Shown here in pieces: positions 28,636 through 57,801 of a stretch of 64,000 nucleotides of DNA. Position 1 is the stretch's first letter. The number at the start of each line of letters is the position of its first letter. The position numbers and the translations under genes were made by a program. Source of the stretch: Tropicimonas sp. IMCC34043 (lineage in GTDB: Bacteria; Pseudomonadota; Alphaproteobacteria; Rhodobacterales; Rhodobacteraceae); the NCBI RefSeq assembly GCF_003390845.1, contig NZ_QMEK01000004.1:186001-250000 (forward strand). The letters are read 5' to 3'. The notes under the pieces are model-generated. The model did not search any database and was not told the origin of the DNA. It saw nothing but the letters and a program-made list of their open reading frames with translations.

Positions 28636-30191
28636 AGGCGGCCCTCCTCATAGGTTTCCCGGATATCCTCGGCCTCGTCGGTGTCGGCCACATCCATGTC
28701 GTGCGCGCCCCCCAGCATCAGGCCGATCTGTTCCATGGTCAGCCCTTCGGTCGACCGCGGCGCCGACAGTTTGCCGGCGTTGAGTGCGGCAAAACGGTCC
28801 GAAACCTCAAGGATCTCGTCCAGATCCTGACTGATGACGATCACCGCCGCACCCTGGGCCGCCAGATCCAGCAGCGCCTGGCGGATCGAGGCGGCAGCCG
28901 CCGCATCGACGCCCCAGGTCGGCTGGTTCACCACCAGCACCGAAGGATCCTGCAGCACCTCGCGACCGATCACGAATTTCTGCAGGTTGCCGCCCGACAG
29001 CGCCCGCGCGGCCACGAACGGCCCCGGTGTGCGCACGTCGAAATCCGCGATGATCTCCTCGGCGAAGTCCTTTGCCTTGCCCCAGCGCACGAACCCGCCC
29101 TCGGCCAGCTTCCTGCGGTGCCAGCCCGACAGCACGGCGTTTTCCACCAGCGTCATGTCGGGGGCGGCGGCATGGCCCAGCCGCTCCTCGGGCGCGCTCA
29201 GCATTCCCAGAGCGCGCCGGGCGTTGGGGCCAAGATGGCCGACCGCATTTCCCTGAAATCGCACCGTCTCGGACGAGCCCAGCGTCTCGCCCGACAGCGC
29301 GCTCAGCAACTCGTCCTGACCGTTGCCGGCAACCCCGCCGATGCCGAGGATCTCGCCGGCCCGCACCTCGAACCCGACGTTCTGCAGCCTCGTGCCGAAT
29401 TCCTCGACATGTTCGCTGGTCAGCCCGGCAACCTGCAGTACCACCTTGCCAGGCGCGCTGCGGCTGCGTTCGGGACGGTGCAATGCCTGCCCCACCATCA
29501 GTTCCGCGAGTTCCGAGGCCGAGCGTTCGCGCGGGTTGCAGGACCCCACGACCTTGCCGCGCCGCAGGATCGTCGCGCCGTCGCAGAGCGCGCGGATCTC
29601 CTCGAGCTTGTGCGAGATATAAAGGATCGAGGTGCCCTCGGCCTTCAGCTTGTTCAGCGTCGCAAACAGGATCTCGACCTCCTGCGGCGTCAGCACGCTG
29701 GTCGGTTCGTCCATGATCAGCAGCTTCGGGTCCTGCAGCAGGCAGCGCACGATCTCGACCCGCTGGCGTTCGCCGGCCGACAGATCGCCGACCATCCGCC
29801 GCGGATCGAGCGGCAGGCCATAGGCGTGACTGACCTCGCGGATCTCGCGCGACAGCTGGGTCGGCTTCGGCGGGTTCTCCATTCCGAGCCCGACATTCTC
29901 GGCCACGGTCAGTGCCTCGAACAGCGAGAAATGCTGGAACACCATGGCGACGCCCGCGGCCCGCGCGGCCCGCGGCTCGGCCGGGGTATAGGGCGTACCG
30001 TTCAGGATCATGGTGCCGGTGTCGGGCTTGACGAGGCCATAGATCATCTTGACCAGCGTCGACTTTCCGGCGCCGTTCTCGCCCAGAAGGGCGTGCACTT
30101 CGCCGCGACCGATGGAGAACGAGACATCGTCATTGGCGACGACCCCGGGATAGGCCTTGGTCAGGCCCTGCAAGGTAAGGAGATCGGTCAA
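28632..30191 (-). CDS. Nucleoside/sugar-type ABC transporter ATPase with two nucleotide-binding domains
   Basis: The 519-aa tandem ATPase has a complete first domain: Walker A GENGAGKST near residue 38, a signature region LSAGERQRVEIVR and Walker B LLIMDEPTSVLTP. The second half shows degenerate motifs (GIGGVAGNGQDELLSAL, LSGGNLQKFVIGRE, VLVVNQPTWGVD), typical of this family, where one site is catalytically weak. It sits between xdhC (four-base overlap) and the permeases. Confidence 0.9.
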   Translation of the reverse strand: MTDLLTLQGLTKAYPGVVANDDVSFSIGRGEVHALLGENGAGKSTLVKMIYGLVKPDTGTMILNGTPYTPAEPRAARAAGVAMVFQHFSLFEALTVAENVGLGMENPPKPTQLSREIREVSHAYGLPLDPRRMVGDLSAGERQRVEIVRCLLQDPKLLIMDEPTSVLTPQEVEILFATLNKLKAEGTSILYISHKLEEIRALCDGATILRRGKVVGSCNPRERSASELAELMVGQALHRPERSRSAPGKVVLQVAGLTSEHVEEFGTRLQNVGFEVRAGEILGIGGVAGNGQDELLSALSGETLGSSETVRFQGNAVGHLGPNARRALGMLSAPEERLGHAAAPDMTLVENAVLSGWHRRKLAEGGFVRWGKAKDFAEEIIADFDVRTPGPFVAARALSGGNLQKFVIGREVLQDPSVLVVNQPTWGVDAAAAASIRQALLDLAAQGAAVIVISQDLDEILEVSDRFAALNAGKLSAPRSTEGLTMEQIGLMLGGAHDMDVADTDEAEDIRETYEEGRL

Positions 30192-31174
30192 GCGCTGCGC
30201 TCCAATGCGGAGGTGTTTCGGGAACGGGCGGCGGAAAGAAGGCGGGCGGCAACCCCGATCGCGATCGCCTGCGGATGCTTGCCAAAGGACGGATCGCCGA
30301 TCGGGCAGGCGATGCGGGCGATCTCGGCCTCGCTATGGCCAAGCTGGCCGAGGCGTTTGCGAAACCGTGCCCATTTGGTCGCAGACCCGATCAGGCCGGC
30401 CGAGGCAAAGCCGTGGCCCAGCAGCGCGTGGCAGAGGGCGAAGTCGATTTCGTGGGAATAGGTCAGGATCAGGTGGTGCGCCTGCACCGGTGCATGCGGA
30501 ATGGCCCGCACCGGATCGACCGCGACCAGAAGGTCGACGCCCAGGGGCGGTGCCTCGGGGAAACGGTCAGGGGCGGTATCGACCCAGGTCACCTGCCAGT
30601 CGGGCAGCGGGGCGAAGACATCGGCGATGGCCCGCCCGACATGGCCCGCGCCATGCAGCCAGAGCGCATTCGACCGTCGCGCGAGCGGCTCGACCAGCCA
30701 GCCCGAGACAAGCCGCGTGACCGGCCCGGCCGAGCCGTTGCGGACTGCGGCAAGCAGACGGCGCAGCGCAAACGGCGCCCGCTGCGCGGCATCGGCCGCC
30801 GCTGTCACAGCGCCCGGCCCGACCGGCCGCAAGACATGGCCCGCGATGGCCGCGCCCGCGATCCCGGCCAGCCGGTCTGCGTCGAGCACCTCGCTCACCA
30901 GCGTCACCGCCCCGCCGCAGCACTGGCCGAGGGCCGGCCCCAGCGGCAGCCGCGCAACGGTGCCACCGCCCTCGGCCAGCAACAGCCGTGCCCGTTCGCT
31001 CGCCAGCCACTCCAGCGCTCCGCCACCGATCGTGCCCGACTGCCCGCCCTGCCAGACCAGCATCGACGCCCCGGCCTCACGCGGGGCCGATCCGACCGCC
31101 TCGGCCACAACGACCCGCACCACACGCCCATGTGCAGCGATGGCCTGACGGATCTGATCGTGATCGAAACTCAT
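30188..31174 (-). CDS. xdhC: XdhC, molybdenum-cofactor sulfuration/insertion protein for xanthine dehydrogenase
   Basis: The 328-aa protein has the XdhC/CoxI pattern: VVVAEAVGSAPREAGASMLVW near the N terminus, GTIGGGALEW, ALGQCCGGAVTL with paired cysteines that may bind cofactor, and a Rossmann-like C-terminal domain (LWLHGAGHVGRAIADVF, later AGLIGSATKWARFRKRL). XdhC binds molybdopterin and helps deliver the sulfurated cofactor to XdhB. Overlaps of four bases with xdhB and with the ABC ATPase gene tie xanthine oxidation to the transporter. Confidence 0.92.
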   Translation of the reverse strand: MSFDHDQIRQAIAAHGRVVRVVVAEAVGSAPREAGASMLVWQGGQSGTIGGGALEWLASERARLLLAEGGGTVARLPLGPALGQCCGGAVTLVSEVLDADRLAGIAGAAIAGHVLRPVGPGAVTAAADAAQRAPFALRRLLAAVRNGSAGPVTRLVSGWLVEPLARRSNALWLHGAGHVGRAIADVFAPLPDWQVTWVDTAPDRFPEAPPLGVDLLVAVDPVRAIPHAPVQAHHLILTYSHEIDFALCHALLGHGFASAGLIGSATKWARFRKRLGQLGHSEAEIARIACPIGDPSFGKHPQAIAIGVAARLLSAARSRNTSALERSA

Positions 31175-33537
31175 CCCTGCACCCGCGTGACCGCCATCAG
31201 CACCCGCTCGGCGGTCGCTGGCGCGTCGAGCGCGGGATAGGCGGGCCCACAGGCTGCCACCGCGTCCGACAGCGCCATCAATGCCGAAATGCCCAACATC
31301 AAAGGCGGTTCGCCGACAGCCTTCGAGCGATAGATCGTGTCTTCTCGGTTCGCTCTATCCCATAGCGCCACGTTAAACACCTCGGGCCGGTCGCCGCAGG
31401 CCGGGATCTTGTAGGTCGAGGGCGCATGGGTCCTGAGCCGTCCCGAACCGTCCCAGACCAGTTCCTCGGTGGTCAGCCAGCCAGCCCCCTGAACATAGCC
31501 GCCCTCGATCTGGCCGATGTCGAGCGCGGGGTTCAGCGAGGTTCCCGCGTCATGCAGGATGTCGCAGCGCAGGATCCGGTTCTCGCCCGTCAGGGTGTCG
31601 ATTGCGACTTCGGTCACGGCCGCGCCATAGGCGAAATAGAAGAACGGCCGACCGGATCCGGCGATCCGGTCCCAGGCGAGTTTTGGCGTCTTGTAGAACC
31701 CGGCGGCGCTCAGGCTGATCCGGGCCTGATAGGCCATCTCGACCGCCGTCTCGAAGGGCAGGGACTCGCCGCCGATCTCGACGCGGTCGCCCTCGAAGCG
31801 GACCGCGGCCGGCTTGGCCTGATAGCGTTCGGCAAGGAATGCAGCGATCCGGTCGCGGATCTGGTCGCAGGCGGCCTTCACCGCCATCCCGTTCATGTCC
31901 GATCCCGACGAGGCCGCGGTGGCCGAGGTGTTCGGAACCTTCCCGGTGTCGGTCGCGGTGATCTTCACCCGCCCGATATCGACGCCAAAACGGCTCGCCG
32001 CGACCTGCGCCACCTTCTGGAACAGGCCCTGGCCCATCTCGGTGCCGCCATGGTTCAGGTGGATCGAGCCGTCGTGATAGACATGCACGAGCGCACCCGC
32101 CTGGTTCAGATGCGTGAGCGTGAAGGAAATGCCGAACTTGACCGGGGTCAGGGCGATGCCGCGTTTGACCACCCCGTTGGTGGCGTTCCACGCGGCAATT
32201 GCAGCCCGGCGCGCACGATACTCCGAGGTTTCGACCAGCTCGGCCACCAGCCCATGCAGGCAGAAATCCTCGACTTCCATGCCATAGGGGGTGGTCTGCA
32301 CCGGCGGCTTCTTCTGTTTCGAAATATCCTCGGGGGGGCTCGCCTCCGGCGAGCGGGGGGCAGACAGCCCCCCTCCGTCCTCGGCCCCGGGCGCCTCGGC
32401 ATAGAAATTCGCCACCCGCACGTCGAGCGGATCGCGCCCCGTCACATGGGCGATGTGGTCCATCACCCGTTCGATGCCGACCATGCCCTGCGGTCCGCCA
32501 AAGCCGCGGAAGGCGGTCGCGGACTGCATGTTGGTGCGCAGCCGGTGCGAGGTGATGCGCACATCGGTCAGCAGATAGGCGTTGTCGGCATGCAGCATTG
32601 CCCGGTCCGCGACCGGCAGCGACAGATCGAGCGACCAGCCGCAGCGCATGTAATGGTCAAAGGCGATGCCAAGGATCCGGCCGCCGTCGTCGATTCCGAC
32701 GCGATAATCGACGCGGATGTCGTGGCGCTTGCCGGTGACCATCATGTCGTCGTCGCGGTCATAGCGCATCTTGCAGGCCCGGCCGGTCCGGCGCGCGGCA
32801 ATGGCACAGGCGATGGCCAGCGCAGTGCCCTGGCTCTCCTTGCCGCCAAAGGCGCCGCCCATGCGCCGGATCTCGACCCGAACCGCGTTCATGGGCAGCC
32901 CGAGCGCCTCGGCCACCTTGTGCTGGATCTCGCTCGGGTGCTGGGTCGAGCAGACCACGACCATGTCGCCGCCTTCCTGCGGCAGCGCAAGCGAGGCCTG
33001 ACCCTCGAGATAGAAATGCTCCTGTCCGCCGACCTCGATACTGCCCTCGATCACCCGGGATGCTGTCGCGATGGCCGCTTCGGGATCGCCGCGCTGATAG
33101 ATCCGCGGCCCGTCCTCGAACCGCCAGTCGGCGGCAAGCGCCTCCTCGACGCTCAGGATCGGTGTGCGCTCGGTCTTCGTCACCTTCCCCAGCCGCGCCG
33201 CCTTGCGGGCGGCGATATGGCTCTTTGCCACCACCAGAAACAGCGGCTGGCCGAGATAATGGACTTCGCCGGTGCTCAGCAGTTCCTCGTGAAACGCAGG
33301 CGTCGTCGAGATATCGTTGTGGCCCGGCAGGTCGGCTGCTGTCAGAACGGCGACGACACCGGGCGCCGCACGCACCGCATCGAGATCCATCTCCGCGACG
33401 GTACCGGCGGCAAAATCCGACAATCCGAAGGCAAGGTGCAGACAGCCGGCGGGAACCGGAATGTCGTCGACATAGCGCGCCTCGCCGGTGACGTGCAGGC
33501 GCGCGGAATCATGGGGCAGGGGGCGGGCGACGCTCAC
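31171..33537 (-). CDS. xdhB: XdhB, xanthine dehydrogenase molybdopterin subunit
   Basis: The 788-aa catalytic subunit contains expected molybdopterin-site motifs: [36 protein letters not shown] and, late, [11 protein letters not shown] with the catalytic glutamate. It oxidises hypoxanthine and xanthine. About residues 388-410 ([15 protein letters not shown]...) are the translation of a palindromic repeat (32309-32374) inserted in frame between the VANFYAEA segment and the conserved [11 protein letters not shown]; related proteins lack this segment as far as I know. Subunit genes overlap by four bases. Confidence 0.92.
32309..32374 (-). repeat. Palindromic repeat inserted in frame in xdhB (copy 1)
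   Basis: The 66-base element contains two adjacent hairpins: GGGGGGC-AGACA-GCCCCCC and CTCGCC-TCC-GGCGAG, followed on the element's own strand by a CGGGGGGG tract and a GAGGATATTTCGAAACAGAAG-like tail. It is about 61/66 identical to the copy in xdhA, in the opposite orientation. The reading frame of xdhB passes through it without a stop. Similar GAGGATATTT-ended palindromes are, from memory, scattered in Rhodobacterales genomes, usually between genes. Confidence 0.85.
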
Positions 33538-34973
33538 GGATGCACCTCGCGGACGTTGGTGACAGCGCCGGACGTTTCGGCAAAATAGCGCCGCAGAAGG
33601 TTCTGCGCCGCCAGCAGCCGGTAGCCGGCCGAGCCGCGCATGTCGGAAAGCGGCGTGAAGTCCTGCGCAAAGGCAGGCAGGGCCGCGGCGACGGTTTCGT
33701 CGGTCCAGGGCTTGCCGGTCAGGGCCGCCTCGACCGCGCTGGCGCGGGCCGGAATGCCTGCCATGCCGCCAAATGCGATCCGTGCCGAGGCGACGGTGCC
33801 GGCCTCGATCGTCAGGTTGAAGCAGCCGCAGACCGCAGAGATGTCCTGATCGAAGCGTTTCGAGATCTTGTAGCAGGCAAGGCCCGGGGCCTGCGCGGGG
33901 AAACTGACGGCCTCGACAAATTCGCCCGGGCGCCGGTCCTGACGCCCGTATTCGAGGAAAAAGGATTCAAGCGGCAGGCTGCGGCGGTCGTCGCCCCGGC
34001 GCAGGTGCAGTATGGCGCCAAGCGCGATCAGCGCCGGAGGGCTGTCGCCAATCGGCGAGCCGTTGGCGATATTGCCGCCGATCGTGGCCATGTTGCGGAT
34101 CTGGACCGAGGCAAAGCGGGTCAGAAAATCGGCCAGCACCGGATGCGGCGCTCGCATCGCCTCGAGCATCCGGGAAATCGTGACGCCGGCGCCGAGGCGG
34201 ATTTCCTCGGGCCCGATGTCGATGGTCTGCAGATCGGCGCATCCATGCAGGAACGCGACCTGTCCCAGATCGCGCAGCCCCTTGGTCACCTGCAGCCCCA
34301 GATCGGTGCCGCCGGCAAAGAGCCGCGCCCCGGAGTGTTCGAGATACCAGGCGGCGAGTTGGTCCGAGGAACGGGGCAGGAAGACTGCAGCGTCGGAAGC
34401 GGAGGGGACCGTTGCAGGGGGGCTGTCAGCCCCCCGCTCGCCTGTGGCGAGCCCCCCCGAGGATATTTCCGAACAGAAGAAATCGTCAGGCTCGTTCATC
34501 CAGTCCGGAACGGGGAGCGCAGCCGCGGCCTCGGCGGCGCGGACAATCGGGGTATATCCGGTGCAACGGCAGAGATTTCCGGCAAGCTGATCATCGTGAT
34601 CCTTGCGGCCGGTCATGTGGGCGGCCGCGAGCGCCACGGTGATGCCCGGGGTGCAGAAGCCGCACTGGCTGCCGTGGTGCTCGATCATCGCCTGTTGCAC
34701 GGGATGCAGCGCGCCATCCGGGCCCGAGAGTCCCTCGACCGTGCGCACGGCCTTGCCCTGAAGCTGCGGCAGCGGCACGAGGCAGGCGTTGATCGCCCGC
34801 GTGCCGTGTTCGGCATCGCTGAGAAGCACCGTACAGGCGCCGCAATCGCCTTCGTTGCAGCCTTCCTTGGTTCCGGTCAGGCCGCGATCTTCGCGCAGCC
34901 AGTCGAGAAGCATCTGCGATGCCGTCCCGTTCACCTGTATCGTTTCGCCATTGAGGCGGAAGGTAATCTCCAT
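33534..34973 (-). CDS. xdhA: XdhA, xanthine dehydrogenase FAD/iron-sulfur subunit
   Basis: The 479-aa subunit has an N-terminal [2Fe-2S] ferredoxin domain ([17 protein letters not shown]) and a second all-helical cluster domain ([24 protein letters not shown]), then an FAD domain from about residue 195 ([31 protein letters not shown]). It passes electrons from XdhB to NAD. Residues about 164-186 ([20 protein letters not shown]) come from an inserted palindromic repeat that lengthens the linker between the cluster and FAD domains. It is the first gene of the xdhABC-transporter operon. Confidence 0.93.
34416..34482 (+). repeat. Palindromic repeat inserted in frame in xdhA (copy 2)
   Basis: This is the same element as in xdhB but in the opposite orientation: GGGGGGC-TGTCA-GCCCCCC, then CTCGCC-TGT-GGCGAG, a GCCCCCCC tract and GAGGATATTTCCGAACAGAAGAA. 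The differences between copies fall mainly in hairpin loops and just beside the GATATTT segment, so the stems are kept. xdhA reads through it in a different frame from xdhB and meets no stop. Confidence 0.85.
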
Positions 34974-42024: not shown

Positions 42025-42432
42025 ATGTTCAAGAGGCTCCTCGTTCCTCTGGCTTTCGAGGAAGGCCACGACCCGACACCAGCGCTTGAGCTTGCGCAAC
42101 GGCTTGCGGCCGATCAGCCCGAGATCGTCTTGCTGCATGTGGTCGAACCGGTGCCGCCCTATGCCATCCACTACATTCCCGAAGACCTTGTGGCCGCGAC
42201 GCGCGATGGGGTGCGGGCCGAGCTTGACCGGCTTGCCGCCGGACTGACCGGCGGCCGGGGCGAGCTTGTCGAAGGCCACCCGGGGCGGGCGATCCTTGAG
42301 ACGGCAGAGGCTTTGGGCACCGATTGCATCGTCATATCGGGCCATCGTCCGGGGGTGCAGGATTTTCTGCTCGGCAGCACCGCGGCCCATGTCGTCCGCC
42401 ACGCCCCCTGCTCGGTCATGGTCTTGCGCTAG
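42025..42432 (+). CDS. Universal stress protein, UspA family (second copy)
   Basis: This is a 135-aa single-domain Usp protein (LLVPLAFEEGHDP, IVLLHVVEPVPPYA, LGTDCIVISGHRPGVQDFLLGSTAAHVVRHAPCSVMVLR) closely matching the copy at 40182 in its second half. ACGGAGATC precedes the ATG. Its last two thirds are the source of a decayed duplicate at 43061-43313. It is followed on the opposite strand by a small membrane-protein gene, an arrangement also duplicated. Confidence 0.9.
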   Translation: MFKRLLVPLAFEEGHDPTPALELAQRLAADQPEIVLLHVVEPVPPYAIHYIPEDLVAATRDGVRAELDRLAAGLTGGRGELVEGHPGRAILETAEALGTDCIVISGHRPGVQDFLLGSTAAHVVRHAPCSVMVLR

Positions 42433-42555
42433 CAGGCCCCACGGCCGGCGTGCGCCACGGGGAATGTCGGCCGTTTCAGCACTTGGCGACTGACGCTGGA
42501 GAGAAGGCCGTTCTTTCGCCCTCTGATAGACACATCTGACCGGATTCGAGCCCGC

Positions 42556-42813
42556 TCAGCCAGACCGGGGTTCGGATCGCGACATATCCTTGGACTTTCC
42601 GGTCTGCTGCGCCATTTTCTTGGCCGCAGATGTCTTCTGCTGTGCCTTCGACGCAAGATGGTCACGCAGCAGGACCCAGCCCGTCAGCAAGAACACGGAT
42701 ATCGTCCCAGAGCCGATATAGACCAGAACGGCGTCCAGAATCCCGGCGCCGAGCACAAGCGACGCAATGGTGGTGCAGATCGCAATCAGCGTTGATGCAA
42801 GCAAAATTCCCAC
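42556..42813 (-). CDS. Small two-helix membrane protein, paralogue 1
   Basis: The 85-aa protein starts with a GTG (GILLASTLIAICTTIASLV) preceded by GGAAGAACC, has two hydrophobic helices (about residues 3-22 and 26-48, with GILDAVLVYIGSGT between) and a basic, polar tail with QQKTSAAKKM. It is clearly homologous to the proteins at 43495 and 45067: all share GIL(L/F)A-x-T-x-x-AIC, a Gly-Ser/Thr-Gly turn and GW(V/I)(L)LR. The family is not recognised. It is convergent with the uspA gene at 42025. Confidence 0.7.
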   Translation of the reverse strand: MGILLASTLIAICTTIASLVLGAGILDAVLVYIGSGTISVFLLTGWVLLRDHLASKAQQKTSAAKKMAQQTGKSKDMSRSEPRSG

Positions 42814-43060
42814 GGTTCTTCCCAGATGTGGTTAGCGGGAGCAAACTGCTCGAATACCTGAATTGGGCGCCAACAACCTACTCACGCTGCACCGACTACG
42901 ATGTGGTTCGCGAAGTAGCGAAAACGTTGCTAACACCAAATTCTCAAGTGTCTGCAACCTATAGTTGAATTGCCTATCGCGTTGCTTTGCCGCGTACAAC
43001 AGCTTTTCGCGGAGCTTTGTCTTCTACAACGTTTTTTTTCCCGAGAGGGGATTTTCGGAA

Positions 43061-43313
43061 CCAAAGAGGAATGGCCGCGACGCGTGATTGGGTGCCAGGC
43101 CGGACTTAATCGCCTTGGTATCGGGCTGACCCGCGGCCGCGACGAACCTGTCGACGGCCACCCGGGGCAGAAGATACTTGAGATGGCTATGGTTTTGGGC
43201 GCCGATTGCAGCGTCATATCGGGCCACCGTCCAGACGTGCAGGATTTTCTGCCATGCAGCACCGCGTGCCATGTCGTCCGCCGCGCCCCTGTTCGGTCAT
43301 GGTTCTGCGTTAG
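43061..43313 (+). pseudogene. Decayed third uspA copy
   Basis: The segment translates to EEWPRRVIGCQAGLNRLGIGLTRGRDEP... GADCSVISGHRPDVQDFLPCSTACHVVRRAP, matching residues about 60-130 of the uspA at 42025. The N-terminal half is missing, the nucleotide loop is damaged (LPCSTACH against LLGSTAAH), and one base is lost in the CGCCCCTGTTC segment near 43287, so the old stop (TAG at 43311-43313) is out of frame. Nucleotide similarity to 42180-42430 is evident. It is a duplicate in decay. Confidence 0.8.
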
Positions 43314-55522: not shown

Positions 55523-55738
55523 TCAGGCCTCGTAGGCGGCCTGAAGGGCGATGTCGCGGATCATGTTGCGGCTCAGCCCGATGTCGGCCAGTTCGCGGTC
55601 ACTGAGCGAGGAAAGCTCGTTGTAGATCTGCGTGTAAACCGCACGACCTGCACGCCAGGCCTTGTAGGATGCAGAGATGCGGCTGGTCCAGCCAGAGAGC
55701 GGCAGGCCAGAGACGGTGGTTTGGTTGGTATAGGTCAT
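55523..55738 (-). CDS. DUF1127 protein, copy 1
   Basis: The 71-aa basic protein ends in the DUF1127 helix-turn pattern YNELSSLSDRELADIGLSRNMIRDIALQA. The ATG at 55738 has AAAGGA upstream. In Rhodobacter the short DUF1127 protein CcaF1 is an RNA-binding regulator transcribed with CcsR small RNAs. This copy, unlike copies 2 and 4, is not followed by a recognisable Cuckoo hairpin. A GATAGCG (minus-strand CGCTATC) lies about 65 bases upstream, similar to a CGCTAAC box before the other copies. Confidence 0.85.
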   Translation of the reverse strand: MTYTNQTTVSGLPLSGWTSRISASYKAWRAGRAVYTQIYNELSSLSDRELADIGLSRNMIRDIALQAAYEA

Positions 55739-55939
55739 TTTCTTCGGTCCTTTCGTACTCCGCACCGGCCGATGCCGGATCCCGGAGAGTTGTCGTTGCA
55801 GCGATAGCGCTAACGAACACTCATAAGATAGCGCCTTCGCGCCGGATTGTAATTGGCCGTTCTTTCAACGCCGCCATGCATTTTCGGACTGGATTGGCGG
55901 AATCGCTCGGCTGTCAAATTCGGCAGCCGAAGGCTGCAA

Positions 55940-56015
55940 ATAAAAAGCGGCGGCACCAGGGAGGATTGGTGCCGCCGCAGGATCGGACAACCCAGGGAGG
56001 AGGAGGGGTTACCCG
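55940..56015 (-). ncRNA. Cuckoo/CcsR-type small RNA (single copy)
   Basis: On the minus strand the sequence forms two hairpins: AACCCC-TCCTCCTCCCT-GGGTT and GCGGCGGCACC-AATCCTCCCT-GGTGCCGCCGC, followed by TTTTTA. Loop motifs with CCUCCUCCC or CCUCCC are the hallmark of the Cuckoo (CcsR) family of Rhodobacterales and rhizobia. It starts about 28 bases after the stop of DUF1127 copy 2, so it is probably cut from that mRNA. The second loop is slightly degenerate. Confidence 0.8.
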
Positions 56016-56042
56016 AATTCTATTGAATGTCCCGGATGCCGA

Positions 56043-56258
56043 TCAGGCGCGCGCAGAAACCTCGCGCGCAACAGGACGGATCATCGTACGGCTCAGGCCG
56101 AGGTCGGCGAGCGAGCGATCGCTCAGCGAGGAAAGCTCTGCCACGGTCTCGCGATAGATGCGGACGCGACGGTAGCGGGCGCGGAGCGTTTCAAGCAGAC
56201 CCTTGCCCTGGGCGTTTTGCAGTGCAGCGTTGCTGCGCGTGTTCAGTGCGGATTCCAT
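56043..56258 (-). CDS. DUF1127 protein, copy 2
   Basis: The 71-aa protein has the C-terminal pattern VAELSSLSDRSLADLGLSRTMIRPVAREV after a basic N-terminal half (GLLETLRARYRRVRIYRE). The ATG at 56258 is preceded by AAGGAACCGC. It is followed by a single Cuckoo RNA (55940-56015). A CGCTAAC box (minus strand, 56325-56319) lies 61 bases upstream. Confidence 0.85.
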   Translation of the reverse strand: MESALNTRSNAALQNAQGKGLLETLRARYRRVRIYRETVAELSSLSDRSLADLGLSRTMIRPVAREVSARA

Positions 56259-56436
56259 AGCGCGGTTCCTTCGTTTCCTGCCGACGCCTTCGTCGGCGAA
56301 CGGTCTCGTCTGTTGGATGTTAGCGGTAACTCTTGCCTCAATATAGGCACCCACGCCTCAGGTTCGACACCCAAAATTGGCAATGCTGCTATGCAGCATA
56401 AGCAGGGTCGGTGAAACCGGTAGAACGCTCCAGATC

Positions 56437-56510
56437 AAAAAAAAGCGGCGGCACCAAAGGGTTGGTGCAGCCGCCTGGCGTCCCGGGCTGACCCCGGGCT
56501 GGAGATCTGT
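56437..56510 (-). terminator. Terminator-like, degenerate Cuckoo-type structure
   Basis: On the minus strand a CCCGGG-based hairpin is followed by GGCGGCTGCACC-AACCCTTT-GGTGCCGCCGC and then eight T. The shape and stem match the second hairpin of the Cuckoo RNAs, but neither loop contains CCUCC. It lies just after DUF1127 copy 3 and should act as its terminator. Confidence 0.7.
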
Positions 56511-56523
56511 AAGTGTCAGGCGA

Positions 56524-56742
56524 TCAGCTGCGCGAAACGGACTGGCGCGCAATGTCGTCGATCATCGACCGGCTGAGGCCCATGTCACGAAGATTGCGGT
56601 CCGACAGGGCGGACAGTTCGTGACGGGTCATGATATAGCTTTCCTGGCGGCGGAGTCCTTTCAGGACTGCATTCATTGCATCGACAAGCCAATTCGAATT
56701 GGCGCGGATGTCCTGACCGTTCGCTGCGCGGGCGCTTTGCAT
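56524..56742 (-). CDS. DUF1127 protein, copy 3
   Basis: The 72-aa protein ends HELSALSDRNLRDMGLSRSMIDDIARQSV. The N-terminal half (IRANSNWLVDAMNAVLKGLRRQESYIM) is less basic than that of the other copies. ATG at 56742 follows AGGACGAGAAC. It precedes a degenerate Cuckoo-like terminator. A CGCTAAC box lies 167 bases upstream (56915-56909), further away than in the other copies. Confidence 0.83.
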   Translation of the reverse strand: MQSARAANGQDIRANSNWLVDAMNAVLKGLRRQESYIMTRHELSALSDRNLRDMGLSRSMIDDIARQSVSRS

Positions 56743-56959
56743 TGTTCTCGTCCTTGGTTCTGTGGCCGGAAATGCACTCCGGAATGGAAGGCGCCCTGCG
56801 GATCGAAAAACCGCCGCGCTTTCGTAGGGCCGTATACCGCGCCACATCGCCCGCGAGTATTCAGAATTCGCTCATCCCCGCTATGCGGCTGATGCATTTT
56901 GCCATGATGTTAGCGTGACCGCATCGCTGGGCGCGGCTGAAGACGGTGTGGGGAGGGCA

Positions 56960-57039
56960 TAAAAAAGCGGCGACACCAGGGAGGAGGAGGGTGTCGCCGC
57001 CGATAGCAGAAAACCCAGGGAGGAGGAGGGGTTCTCTGA
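56960..57039 (-). ncRNA. Cuckoo/CcsR-type small RNA, array copy 5 (last)
   Basis: Two hairpins: AGAGAACCCC-TCCTCCTCCCT-GGGTTTTCT and GCGGCGACACC-CTCCTCCTCCCT-GGTGTCGCCGC, then TTTTTT. The closing poly-T makes this the transcription end of the five-RNA array. Both loops carry CCTCCTCCC in full. Confidence 0.85.
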
Positions 57040-57095
57040 ACTCGTTCGCACCCCGGTGGGTGCTGCCCGACCCGTTGCGGGTCCGGCGGAAGAAA

Positions 57096-57173
57096 GGAAG
57101 CGGCGACACCAGGGAGGAGGAGGGTGTCGCCGCCAATTGCAGAAAACCCAGGGAGGAGGAGGGGTTCTCTGAA
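57096..57173 (-). ncRNA. Cuckoo/CcsR-type small RNA, array copy 4
   Basis: Same two-hairpin structure as copy 5, with both CCTCCTCCC loops intact and almost identical sequence (CAATTG replaces CTATCG between hairpins). No poly-T follows, so it must be released by processing. Confidence 0.85.
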
Positions 57174-57228
57174 CTCGTTCGCACCCCGGTGGGTGCTGCC
57201 CGACCCGTTGCGGGTCCGGCGGAAGAAA

Positions 57229-57306
57229 GAAGGCGGCGACACCAGGGAGGAGGAGAGTGTCGCCGCCAATTGCAGAAAACCCAGGGAGGAGGAGGGGTTC
57301 TCTGAA
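57229..57306 (-). ncRNA. Cuckoo/CcsR-type small RNA, array copy 3
   Basis: Nearly identical to copy 4, with one change in the second loop region (ACACTCTCCTCCTCCCTGG). Both loops keep CCTCCTCCC and the stems are intact. Confidence 0.85.
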
Positions 57307-57361
57307 CTTTGTTCGCACCCCGGTGGGTGCTGCCCGGCCCCGCGATCGGGGAAAGGCCGAA

Positions 57362-57441
57362 TAGGGCGGCGGCGACACCAGGGAGGAGGAGCGTGTCACC
57401 GCCTTTGGAAGACCCAGGGAGGAGGAGGGGCCTTCCGATTT
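57362..57441 (-). ncRNA. Cuckoo/CcsR-type small RNA, array copy 2
   Basis: Two hairpins: GGAAGGCCCC-TCCTCCTCCCT-GGGTCTTCC and GGCGGTGACACG-CTCCTCCTCCCT-GGTGTCGCCGCC. The stem sequences have changed with pairing largely kept, while the loop motif is constant, which supports an RNA function. Confidence 0.82.
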
Positions 57442-57487
57442 CGTCTGCGTTGCCGTTCCGGCCGCGCTACCCGTCGTGACGGGCGTT

Positions 57488-57572
57488 TGTCATGTGGCGA
57501 CGACACCAGGGAGGAGGAGAGGTGCCGCCGCCGTATCAGAAAACCCAGGGAGGAGGACGGGTTTCTGAATTC
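57488..57572 (-). ncRNA. Cuckoo/CcsR-type small RNA, array copy 1 (nearest the DUF1127 gene)
   Basis: Two hairpins: AGAAACCCG-TCCTCCTCCCT-GGGTTTTCT and GGCGGCGGCACC-TCTCCTCCTCCCT-GGTGTCGTCGCC. It begins about 10 bases after the DUF1127 copy 4 stop, so protein gene and RNAs share a transcript, as in the R. sphaeroides CcaF1-CcsR1-4 operon. Confidence 0.85.
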
Positions 57573-57582
57573 TCTACTTCGT

Positions 57583-57801
57583 TCAGGCGACCCGCGCTGC
57601 TTCGCGGGCCACGTTTGCGATCATCGCCTTGCTGAGGCCAAGATCGTTGAGTTCCCGGTCCGACAGCGCGGAAAGCTCTGCCGAAACCGACCGATACACG
57701 CGGACCCGGCGGACCTGATCGCTGAGCGCGGTCATGAGGGCTGAAATCCTGCCGGCACCAACTTCGCCGCGGTTTCCATTCATGTTTCCGGCCATCGCCA
57801 T
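57583..57801 (-). CDS. DUF1127 protein, copy 4 (CcaF1-like, heads the small-RNA array)
   Basis: The 72-aa protein starts MAMAGNMNGNRGEVG and ends SAELSALSDRELNDLGLSKAMIANVAREAA, with a basic middle (QVRRVRVYRS). AAGGAAGACGAAG lies before the ATG at 57801. By position it corresponds to R. sphaeroides RSP_6037 (CcaF1), the RNA-binding DUF1127 protein co-transcribed with CcsR1-4 from an RpoHI/RpoHII promoter under oxidative and heat stress. A CGCTAAC box lies 84 bases upstream (57891-57885). Confidence 0.87.
   Translation of the reverse strand: MAMAGNMNGNRGEVGAGRISALMTALSDQVRRVRVYRSVSAELSALSDRELNDLGLSKAMIANVAREAARVA

Follow-up and report, generated by a model that had tools for sequence, protein, structure and literature searches.

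In-frame members of a REP-like palindromic family in the linkers of both xanthine dehydrogenase subunits

The window analyzed here, a 64,000-nucleotide stretch of Tropicimonas sp. IMCC34043 (contig NZ_QMEK01000004.1, positions 186,001 to 250,000), carries two copies of one palindromic repeat, each translated in frame within a linker of a xanthine dehydrogenase subunit (XdhA and XdhB, respectively). These segments are in-frame members of a family that resembles repetitive extragenic palindromes (REPs) in a loose sense. Its units combine GC-rich hairpins, one or two in number, with a core of the GGATATTT type and a tail rich in purines (for example AACAGAAGAAG), and they usually lie tens of nucleotides behind a stop codon. 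The same two linkers are occupied in many genera, and the in-gene DNA tends to follow the version of the repeat resident in the same genome. The common site, orientation and frame, combined with this matching of dialects, suggest an old insertion into each linker that many lineages have since lost and that resident copies have overwritten in the others, a reading to which we would give roughly even odds (about 0.5) on the strength of the sequence comparisons described below.

Two in-gene copies of a dispersed repeat

A repeat search of the window returned inverted arms of 66 nt at 32309–32374 and 34416–34481 (92% complementary). The xdhB and xdhA copies agree at 61 of the 66 compared bases, and inspection of the sequence places three of the five differences in hairpin loops and two in the tail spacer; the initial annotation, which had described a palindromic repeat in frame in both genes with changes mostly in the loops, is confirmed as an observation. 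Once the tail of the genomic copies is included, the full element comprises 67 nt in each copy. In xdhB it occupies 32308–32374 on the minus strand, in the usual sense orientation (hairpins, GGATATTT core, tail), and encodes residues 388–410 (23 aa); its parts are the genome-type tail CTTCTTCTGTT (32308–32318, plus strand), the core AAATATCCTCGGGGGG (32322–32337, plus strand), hairpin 1 (32338–32354, 7-bp stem and 3-nt loop) and hairpin 2 (32355–32373, GGGGGGC-AGACA-GCCCCCC). The xdhA copy (34416–34482, plus strand) is antisense to its gene, the gene strand encoding residues 164–186 (23 aa), and consists of hairpin 2 (34417–34435), hairpin 1 (34436–34452, stem as in the xdhB copy), the core AAATATCCTCGGGGGG (34453–34468, minus strand) and a tail. 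Both copies are built alike from a pair of hairpins, the core (AAATATCC, or GGATATTT when read from the complementary strand) and the tail (CTTCTTCTGTT, or AACAGAAGAAG from the complementary strand); xdhB reads the element in the orientation usual behind genes and xdhA reads the opposite strand. No stop codon falls within the element in either reading frame.

The core AAATATCCTCGGGGGG occurs twice in the window with zero mismatches, and among the repeats of at least 40 nt listed for all 64 kb there is a single other inverted pair, at 71%. RNA folding z-scores of the in-gene copies are modest on both strands (−1.25 to −2.71), and a scan of 32200–34600 for terminators (a hairpin and then a T run) found neither copy, its sole match lying elsewhere.

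A tail-plus-core pattern allowing at most one mismatch (which misses degenerate copies, for example both xdh copies of genome G005) recovers 47 copies from the 4.6-Mb genome, against none for the reversed control; blastn with one copy listed 42 matches at E ≤ 1. With the surrounding genes called by a home-made codon model, and with the class “sense behind a gene” carrying no distance limit, the 47 unique copies of the own genome divide into 34 sense behind a gene (the core 29–112 nt past the stop codon), 10 that are intergenic and antisense, one between divergent genes and the two inside xdhA and xdhB. The mapped sets of three further genomes are those of G004 (26 unique copies for 29, identical array units being collapsed; 15 sense, 10 antisense, one inside xdhB), G005 (15 of 17; 11 sense and four antisense, its two xdh copies lying outside the reach of the pattern) and Rhodosalinus (40 of 43; 30 sense, five antisense, three divergent, two inside xdhA and xdhB), and in these a few “sense” copies stand hundreds of nucleotides from the gene. 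Over the four genomes, 90 of 128 mapped copies are sense behind a gene (34/47, 15/26, 11/15 and 30/40), and five are inside genes, each of them in xdhA or xdhB. One G004 contig (C38; L183, 1555–2763) holds 4.6 tandem copies of a 264-bp unit (96% matches) that carries an element core and tail.

Rare other in-gene cases are a photolyase on the Cereibacter azotoformans plasmid pORIO5 (L242, 920–2287, minus strand), where the element lies in frame between the two Pfam domains, and a CobN-like protein from a genome of the same bacterial family (L245, 1505–4501, plus strand), where the element lies in frame close to the beginning of the Pfam match. Nine loci fetched from elsewhere comprise seven intergenic cases, one xdhB and one cobN. 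Among plasmids, 16 records match at E ≤ 0.01, and the best place falls under an annotated gene in one of the 16 (the gene table being incomplete); because two of these records are from Acuticoccus (Hyphomicrobiales), the family extends beyond the Rhodobacterales. A weak match on a Phaeobacter plasmid (78%, E 0.05) begins at the last base of an annotated coding sequence. The element has no Rfam match at the gathering threshold, and we rejected a known Rfam RNA on that ground. The REP-associated transposase family PF01797 has no match in the own genome and is present in three of nine genomes of the genus, which by pattern hold 0, 2 and 0 copies.

Occupancy of the same two linkers in many genera

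The orthologue set combines eight congeners and the window with the 80 best of 581 named loci, the titles of which point mostly to Rhodobacterales; it gave 89 XdhA and 88 XdhB linkers once paralogues below 55% identity, duplicate loci and an XdhB row whose linker was empty (L082) had been left out. We call the element in 27/89 xdhA linkers and 42/88 xdhB linkers. A score of at least 13/16 is reached by 63 of these 69 copies, by 0/1617 control windows taken elsewhere in the genes, and by none of the linkers on their opposite strand; the remaining six calls score 11–12 and depend on the second hairpin, because 135/1617 control windows also score 11–12. These controls speak to the proposal that the linkers are ordinary GC-rich low-complexity DNA and that the resemblance stems from convergent codon usage. 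The linkers do vary in length and are G- and C-rich, and the control windows scoring 11–12 would fit such convergence, but the lack of any control at 13 contradicts it for the 63 stronger copies; stems of at least 8 bp, found in 7/534 control windows versus about half of type I copies, and the match of in-gene copies to their own residents (see below) argue the same way, and we regard the proposal as scarcely credible.

Orientation is constant in each gene, antisense in xdhA and sense in xdhB, and the frame is the same in 23/25 xdhA and 38/38 xdhB copies scoring at least 13, the two xdhA exceptions being L064 and L034, in the latter of which the score had settled on a different stretch. The frame is kept in two of the six weaker calls (L047 and L104) and not in L083, L092 or either copy of L085. 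Stop avoidance was rejected as the cause of this constancy: 33–43 of the 45 intergenic copies of the own genome are open in each of the six frames, and stops therefore do not force the frame. The two segments are not private insertions of this strain; many genera carry the element in these linkers with an unchanged orientation and, almost without exception, an unchanged frame, and this points to old insertions.

In that frame, an ATA codon stands at the xdhA core in 21/25 copies, against 122/2011 of the Ile codons elsewhere in xdhA, an excess that arises partly by construction because presence was scored on the core itself; the count shows that a rare codon is kept along with the DNA sequence at this place. 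Thirteen of the 27 xdhA copies lie exactly 40 nt from the PDW anchor, and inspection of the orthologue linkers revealed no target sequence common to the xdhA inserts. Homologues that lack the repeat DNA and yet have segments of equal length had been named in the initial annotation as an argument against insertion. They do not refute it for XdhA, where repeat-free linkers are mostly shorter; for XdhB, repeat-free linkers can equal or exceed the occupied length, with a different sequence.

Some linkers depart from the standard unit. Hairpin 1 is a longer palindrome, CCATYGGTTCGAGCCCRATGG, in the xdhB linkers of L117 and L067, which belong to two different genera. Palindromes of another kind are seen in the xdhB linkers of L045, L073 and L106 (GGTGGATCTTGATCCACC in L106) and in the xdhA linker of L038 (GTGGGTTGCACCCATCC). 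The xdhA and xdhB linkers appear as if they were general landing places.

Genome dialects and a proposed history of the in-gene copies

Resident copies differ between genomes in tail and core, with AACAG in the own genome, GACAG in 29/29 listed copies of G004 and 16/17 of G005, CCAAG in nearly all of the 43 Rhodosalinus copies, and GCCAG in Salipiger and KLH11. Several resident subfamilies are found within Mameliella and within Ruegeria marina. Decay alone was rejected as the source of non-canonical cores (AAATACCC and the like), these being the core of a resident subfamily in several genomes. Residents were listed for 27 genomes, covering 41 of the 69 in-gene copies, from a reading of the outputs by eye in which some subfamilies are represented by one to three copies. 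On this basis, the tail and core of an in-gene copy differ from those of its own residents by 2.24 mismatches on average, versus 4.14 when genomes are permuted (none of 20000 permutations is as low, the lowest being 3.24), a permutation that does not remove shared ancestry. Two mismatches or fewer separate 28/41 tested copies from their own residents, and the xdhA and xdhB copies are alike within a genome (0.71 versus 0.55, p 5e-5, 17 genomes). The hairpins follow suit in two genomes: those of both G000 copies fit their own residents best (40 and 37, versus at most 27.5 elsewhere), as do those of Rhodosalinus (49/50 for xdhA and 42 for the other copy, versus at most 28.5 elsewhere). Seven genomes of the genus, the own one among them, have an xdhB copy, and in this set the decay of tail and core is greater where residents are scarcer (rho −0.89, p 0.007, uncorrected for kinship).

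The positions of the residents are partly shared between congeners. Among G000, G004 and G005, 13 copy pairs share one neighbouring gene family and seven share both neighbours, and at these shared intergenic sites the tail follows genome type. The sites shared with congeners on both sides include L018, L020 and L030, the counterparts of which are L193, L189/L186 and L167. A tail that changes in step at shared sites is what would be expected if all copies were sites of a genome-specific protein or RNA (a terminator factor, a nucleoid protein or an uptake-sequence-like system) and were changed together by selection. The 90/128 mapped copies lying sense behind a gene would agree with such co-evolution, as would the persistence of long perfect stems in copies with a core score of only 11–13. 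Set against it are the coexistence of several subfamilies in one genome, the lack of an Rfam match at the gathering threshold, and a strand preference that is not strict, since 29 of the 33 other extragenic copies are antisense between genes; furthermore, the hairpin sequence in Rhodosalinus is copied as well as the tail. Co-evolution with a factor accounts for the intergenic dialects and not for these copied hairpins, and we consider it improbable as an explanation of the whole.

We favor instead a history of early insertion followed by loss or overwriting. Early in the group, one copy would have landed antisense in the xdhA linker between the iron–sulfur (FeS) and flavin adenine dinucleotide (FAD) domains, and another, in sense, in the xdhB linker between the two molybdopterin-binding domains; the 20–25 added residues would have been tolerated because both places are loose and permissive. 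Many lineages would later have deleted their copies, and those retained would repeatedly have been overwritten in place by residents of the same genome, through ectopic gene conversion or an equivalent copying step, thereby taking on the tail and core dialect of the genome and sometimes its hairpins. What the comparisons show directly is the identity of the segments, their frame, orientation and placement, and the genome match of 28/41 tested copies. That site, orientation and frame are constant speaks for a single event in each gene, and the adherence of the DNA to the resident dialect argues for later copying from residents; from these we infer a probable single origin in each gene, overwriting as the likely cause of genome matching and, on the structural models given below, tolerance through predicted disorder. 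More tentatively, and at somewhat less than even odds, the xdh linkers may be standing targets of within-genome overwriting, with the residents behind genes as donors that rewrite 20–25 residues of a working enzyme to the current dialect of the genome, in a form of concerted evolution between non-coding repeats and the coding sequence. Were this history correct, a protein segment would evolve by copying from non-coding repeats, and not by point mutation alone, at the same two places of an enzyme in many genera. Because position, orientation and frame of the in-gene copies are fixed, they also make it testable how uniformity within a genome is kept by a REP-like family that has no evident transposase.

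Several results weigh against this history, the first of them being patchiness. On a tree of 88 XdhA plus XdhB sequences (linkers removed, midpoint rooting), presence needs at least 15 changes of any kind in xdhA and at least 23 in xdhB, and presence at the root requires 22 and 29 losses, respectively. Shuffled labels give means of 23.3 (xdhA) and 29.4 (xdhB), with minima of 17 and 21, such that the xdhA pattern fits the tree better than any of the shuffles and the xdhB pattern does not; presence in one gene is weakly associated with presence in the other (Fisher p 0.067). As to overwriting, 13/41 copies are more than two mismatches from their residents, including both of Phaeobacter HF9A and those of Gemmobacter (partial list) and R. 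capsulatus, and part of the matching could be the shared ancestry that permutation leaves in place. The hairpins of both G005 copies are a closer fit to G000 residents than to those of G005, the G004 xdhB hairpin shows no clear preference, and fixed-tail patterns found no residents in 17/32 and 14/25 genomes. No conversion tract was seen among the copies compared, and copies of 60–70 nt are near the lower length limit for homologous recombination.

The patchiness is better accounted for by repeated site-specific insertion than by an old insertion with overwriting. A mobile system would here insert, or re-insert, the resident element at the same linker sites in a fixed orientation, perhaps into the remains of older copies, in the manner proposed for the spread of REPs or Rickettsia palindromic elements, and this would yield both the changes on the tree (at least 15 and at least 23) and the dialect match of the in-gene copies. 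It would also accommodate the type I and type II elements found at the same xdhB place in related genera (L053 versus L084 and L089), and the case of two Ruegeria strains, KLH11 with both elements and EL01 with neither, which differ in their linkers and are 87.8% identical outside them. Recurrent insertion would, however, demand an exact site to keep frame and orientation constant, and no common target sequence is visible beside the xdhA insert; it also needs a mobilizing enzyme, and PF01797 is absent here, the genus genomes that have it holding 0, 2 and 0 copies. Intergenic positions partly common to congeners add to these objections, and we judge recurrent insertion to be rather unlikely. 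The mobility originally proposed for the element finds no support here: the own genome has no PF01797 match, some intergenic positions are shared between congeners, and no empty site with identical flanks was seen among the orthologues compared.

The encoded segments and comparison with known repeats

The two host genes are consecutive with xdhC, all three on the minus strand: xdhA (33534–34973; small subunit with 2Fe-2S and FAD domains, 479 aa; TIGR02963 and Pfam), xdhB (31171–33537; molybdopterin subunit, 788 aa; TIGR02965 and Pfam) and, as the next gene of the operon, xdhC (30188–31174; accessory protein; TIGR02964). Both element-bearing frames are intact and exceed curated cut-offs (TIGR02965, 1215 bits for the large subunit; TIGR02963, 558 bits for the small). 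The element lies between the Fer2_2 and FAD_binding_5 matches in xdhA, and between those of MoCoBD_1 and MoCoBD_2 in xdhB. In AlphaFold2 models, the predicted local distance difference test (pLDDT) score falls below 50 at XdhA residues 167–193 (element 164–186; model mean 79.4) and at XdhB residues 385–409 (element 388–410; model mean 73.0). This suggests, rather than establishes, that the element-coded segments are disordered, because weak stretches also exist elsewhere in both models (six in total in XdhA, thirteen in XdhB).

The solved Rhodobacter capsulatus enzyme has FTLAQLSSGVRGQTAPAFLP at the xdhA linker place (2w3r chain A) and ERGGLSAPPSPPEPIATKK at that of xdhB (1jro chain B). In the DNA of R. 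capsulatus DSM 1710, the second hairpin is kept at both places, with core scores of 14/16 in xdhA and 12/16 in xdhB, and the segments of the crystallized protein look repeat-derived at both linkers; we take this protein as evidence that such segments are compatible with a folded enzyme. The R. capsulatus enzyme is catalytically active. The possibility of pseudogenes, which the initial annotation had set out as fatal to its proposal, is rejected in view of the intact frames above curated cut-offs and the crystallized R. capsulatus homologue with derived segments. That annotation was right in seeing palindromes of a dispersed family that lie in frame within linkers of both subunits and are tolerated in a protein, as Rickettsia palindromic elements are.

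Those elements, the best-known example of in-frame insertion, are palindromic repeats translated in frame inside conserved proteins; in a review, they measure about 150 bp and occupy 44 places in unrelated genes of R. conorii (PMC10969869). The family described here is unlike them in that its mapped copies stand almost exclusively behind genes, and in that in-gene copies are not spread over many unrelated genes and concentrate in xdhA and xdhB (5/128). REPs of the GTAG and CGTC superfamilies are likewise small GC-rich palindromes found mostly near gene 3′ ends, some of them wholly inside open reading frames, and different REPs occupy about the same site in recB of two Xanthomonas species (Di Nocera et al, 2013; PMC3733652). 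In contrast, GTAG occurs anywhere in the unit in 3/45 copies here versus 18.3 in shuffles, CGTC is not in excess (30/45 versus 28.7), the units are longer with a conserved asymmetric core and tail, and in many genera one pair of linkers in a single enzyme is filled by sequence that tends to follow the genome dialect. We therefore rejected a GTAG/CGTC REP with a REP-associated tyrosine transposase (RAYT), given no GTAG tag, no CGTC excess and no PF01797 match in the own genome. The REP/TnpA-REP systems similarly consist of dispersed palindromes that have a short conserved stretch beyond the stem, a GTAG read by TnpA-REP (PMC8266576); here, the GTAG tag is absent, as is the transposase family in the own genome.

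Inspection of the alignment also sets the element apart from a miniature inverted-repeat transposable element (MITE), as in place of terminal inverted repeats one end is a hairpin and the other an asymmetric tail. DNA uptake sequences are far shorter than the element here and occur in much greater numbers. The uptake sequence dialects of Neisseriaceae resemble it in presenting a repeated motif in a genome-specific version (PMC3630211). Among the open-access literature matches listed, there is no report of the family, whether for Rhodobacterales or for xanthine dehydrogenase. While REPs inside genes and Rickettsia palindromic elements are already known, it is new that one enzyme is occupied at a pair of places in many genera and that the dialects match the genome.

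Two further repeats lie elsewhere in the window. At 55557–57678, four related 62-nt stretches (63–81% to the reference) are interleaved with a GGGAGGAGGAGGG-bearing repeat array of 133-nt period, an arrangement that resembles the Rhodobacter DUF1127 genes and small RNAs with the CCUCCUCC motif. At 42207–43289, two direct repeats of 201 nt are 80% identical, with starts 882 nt apart.

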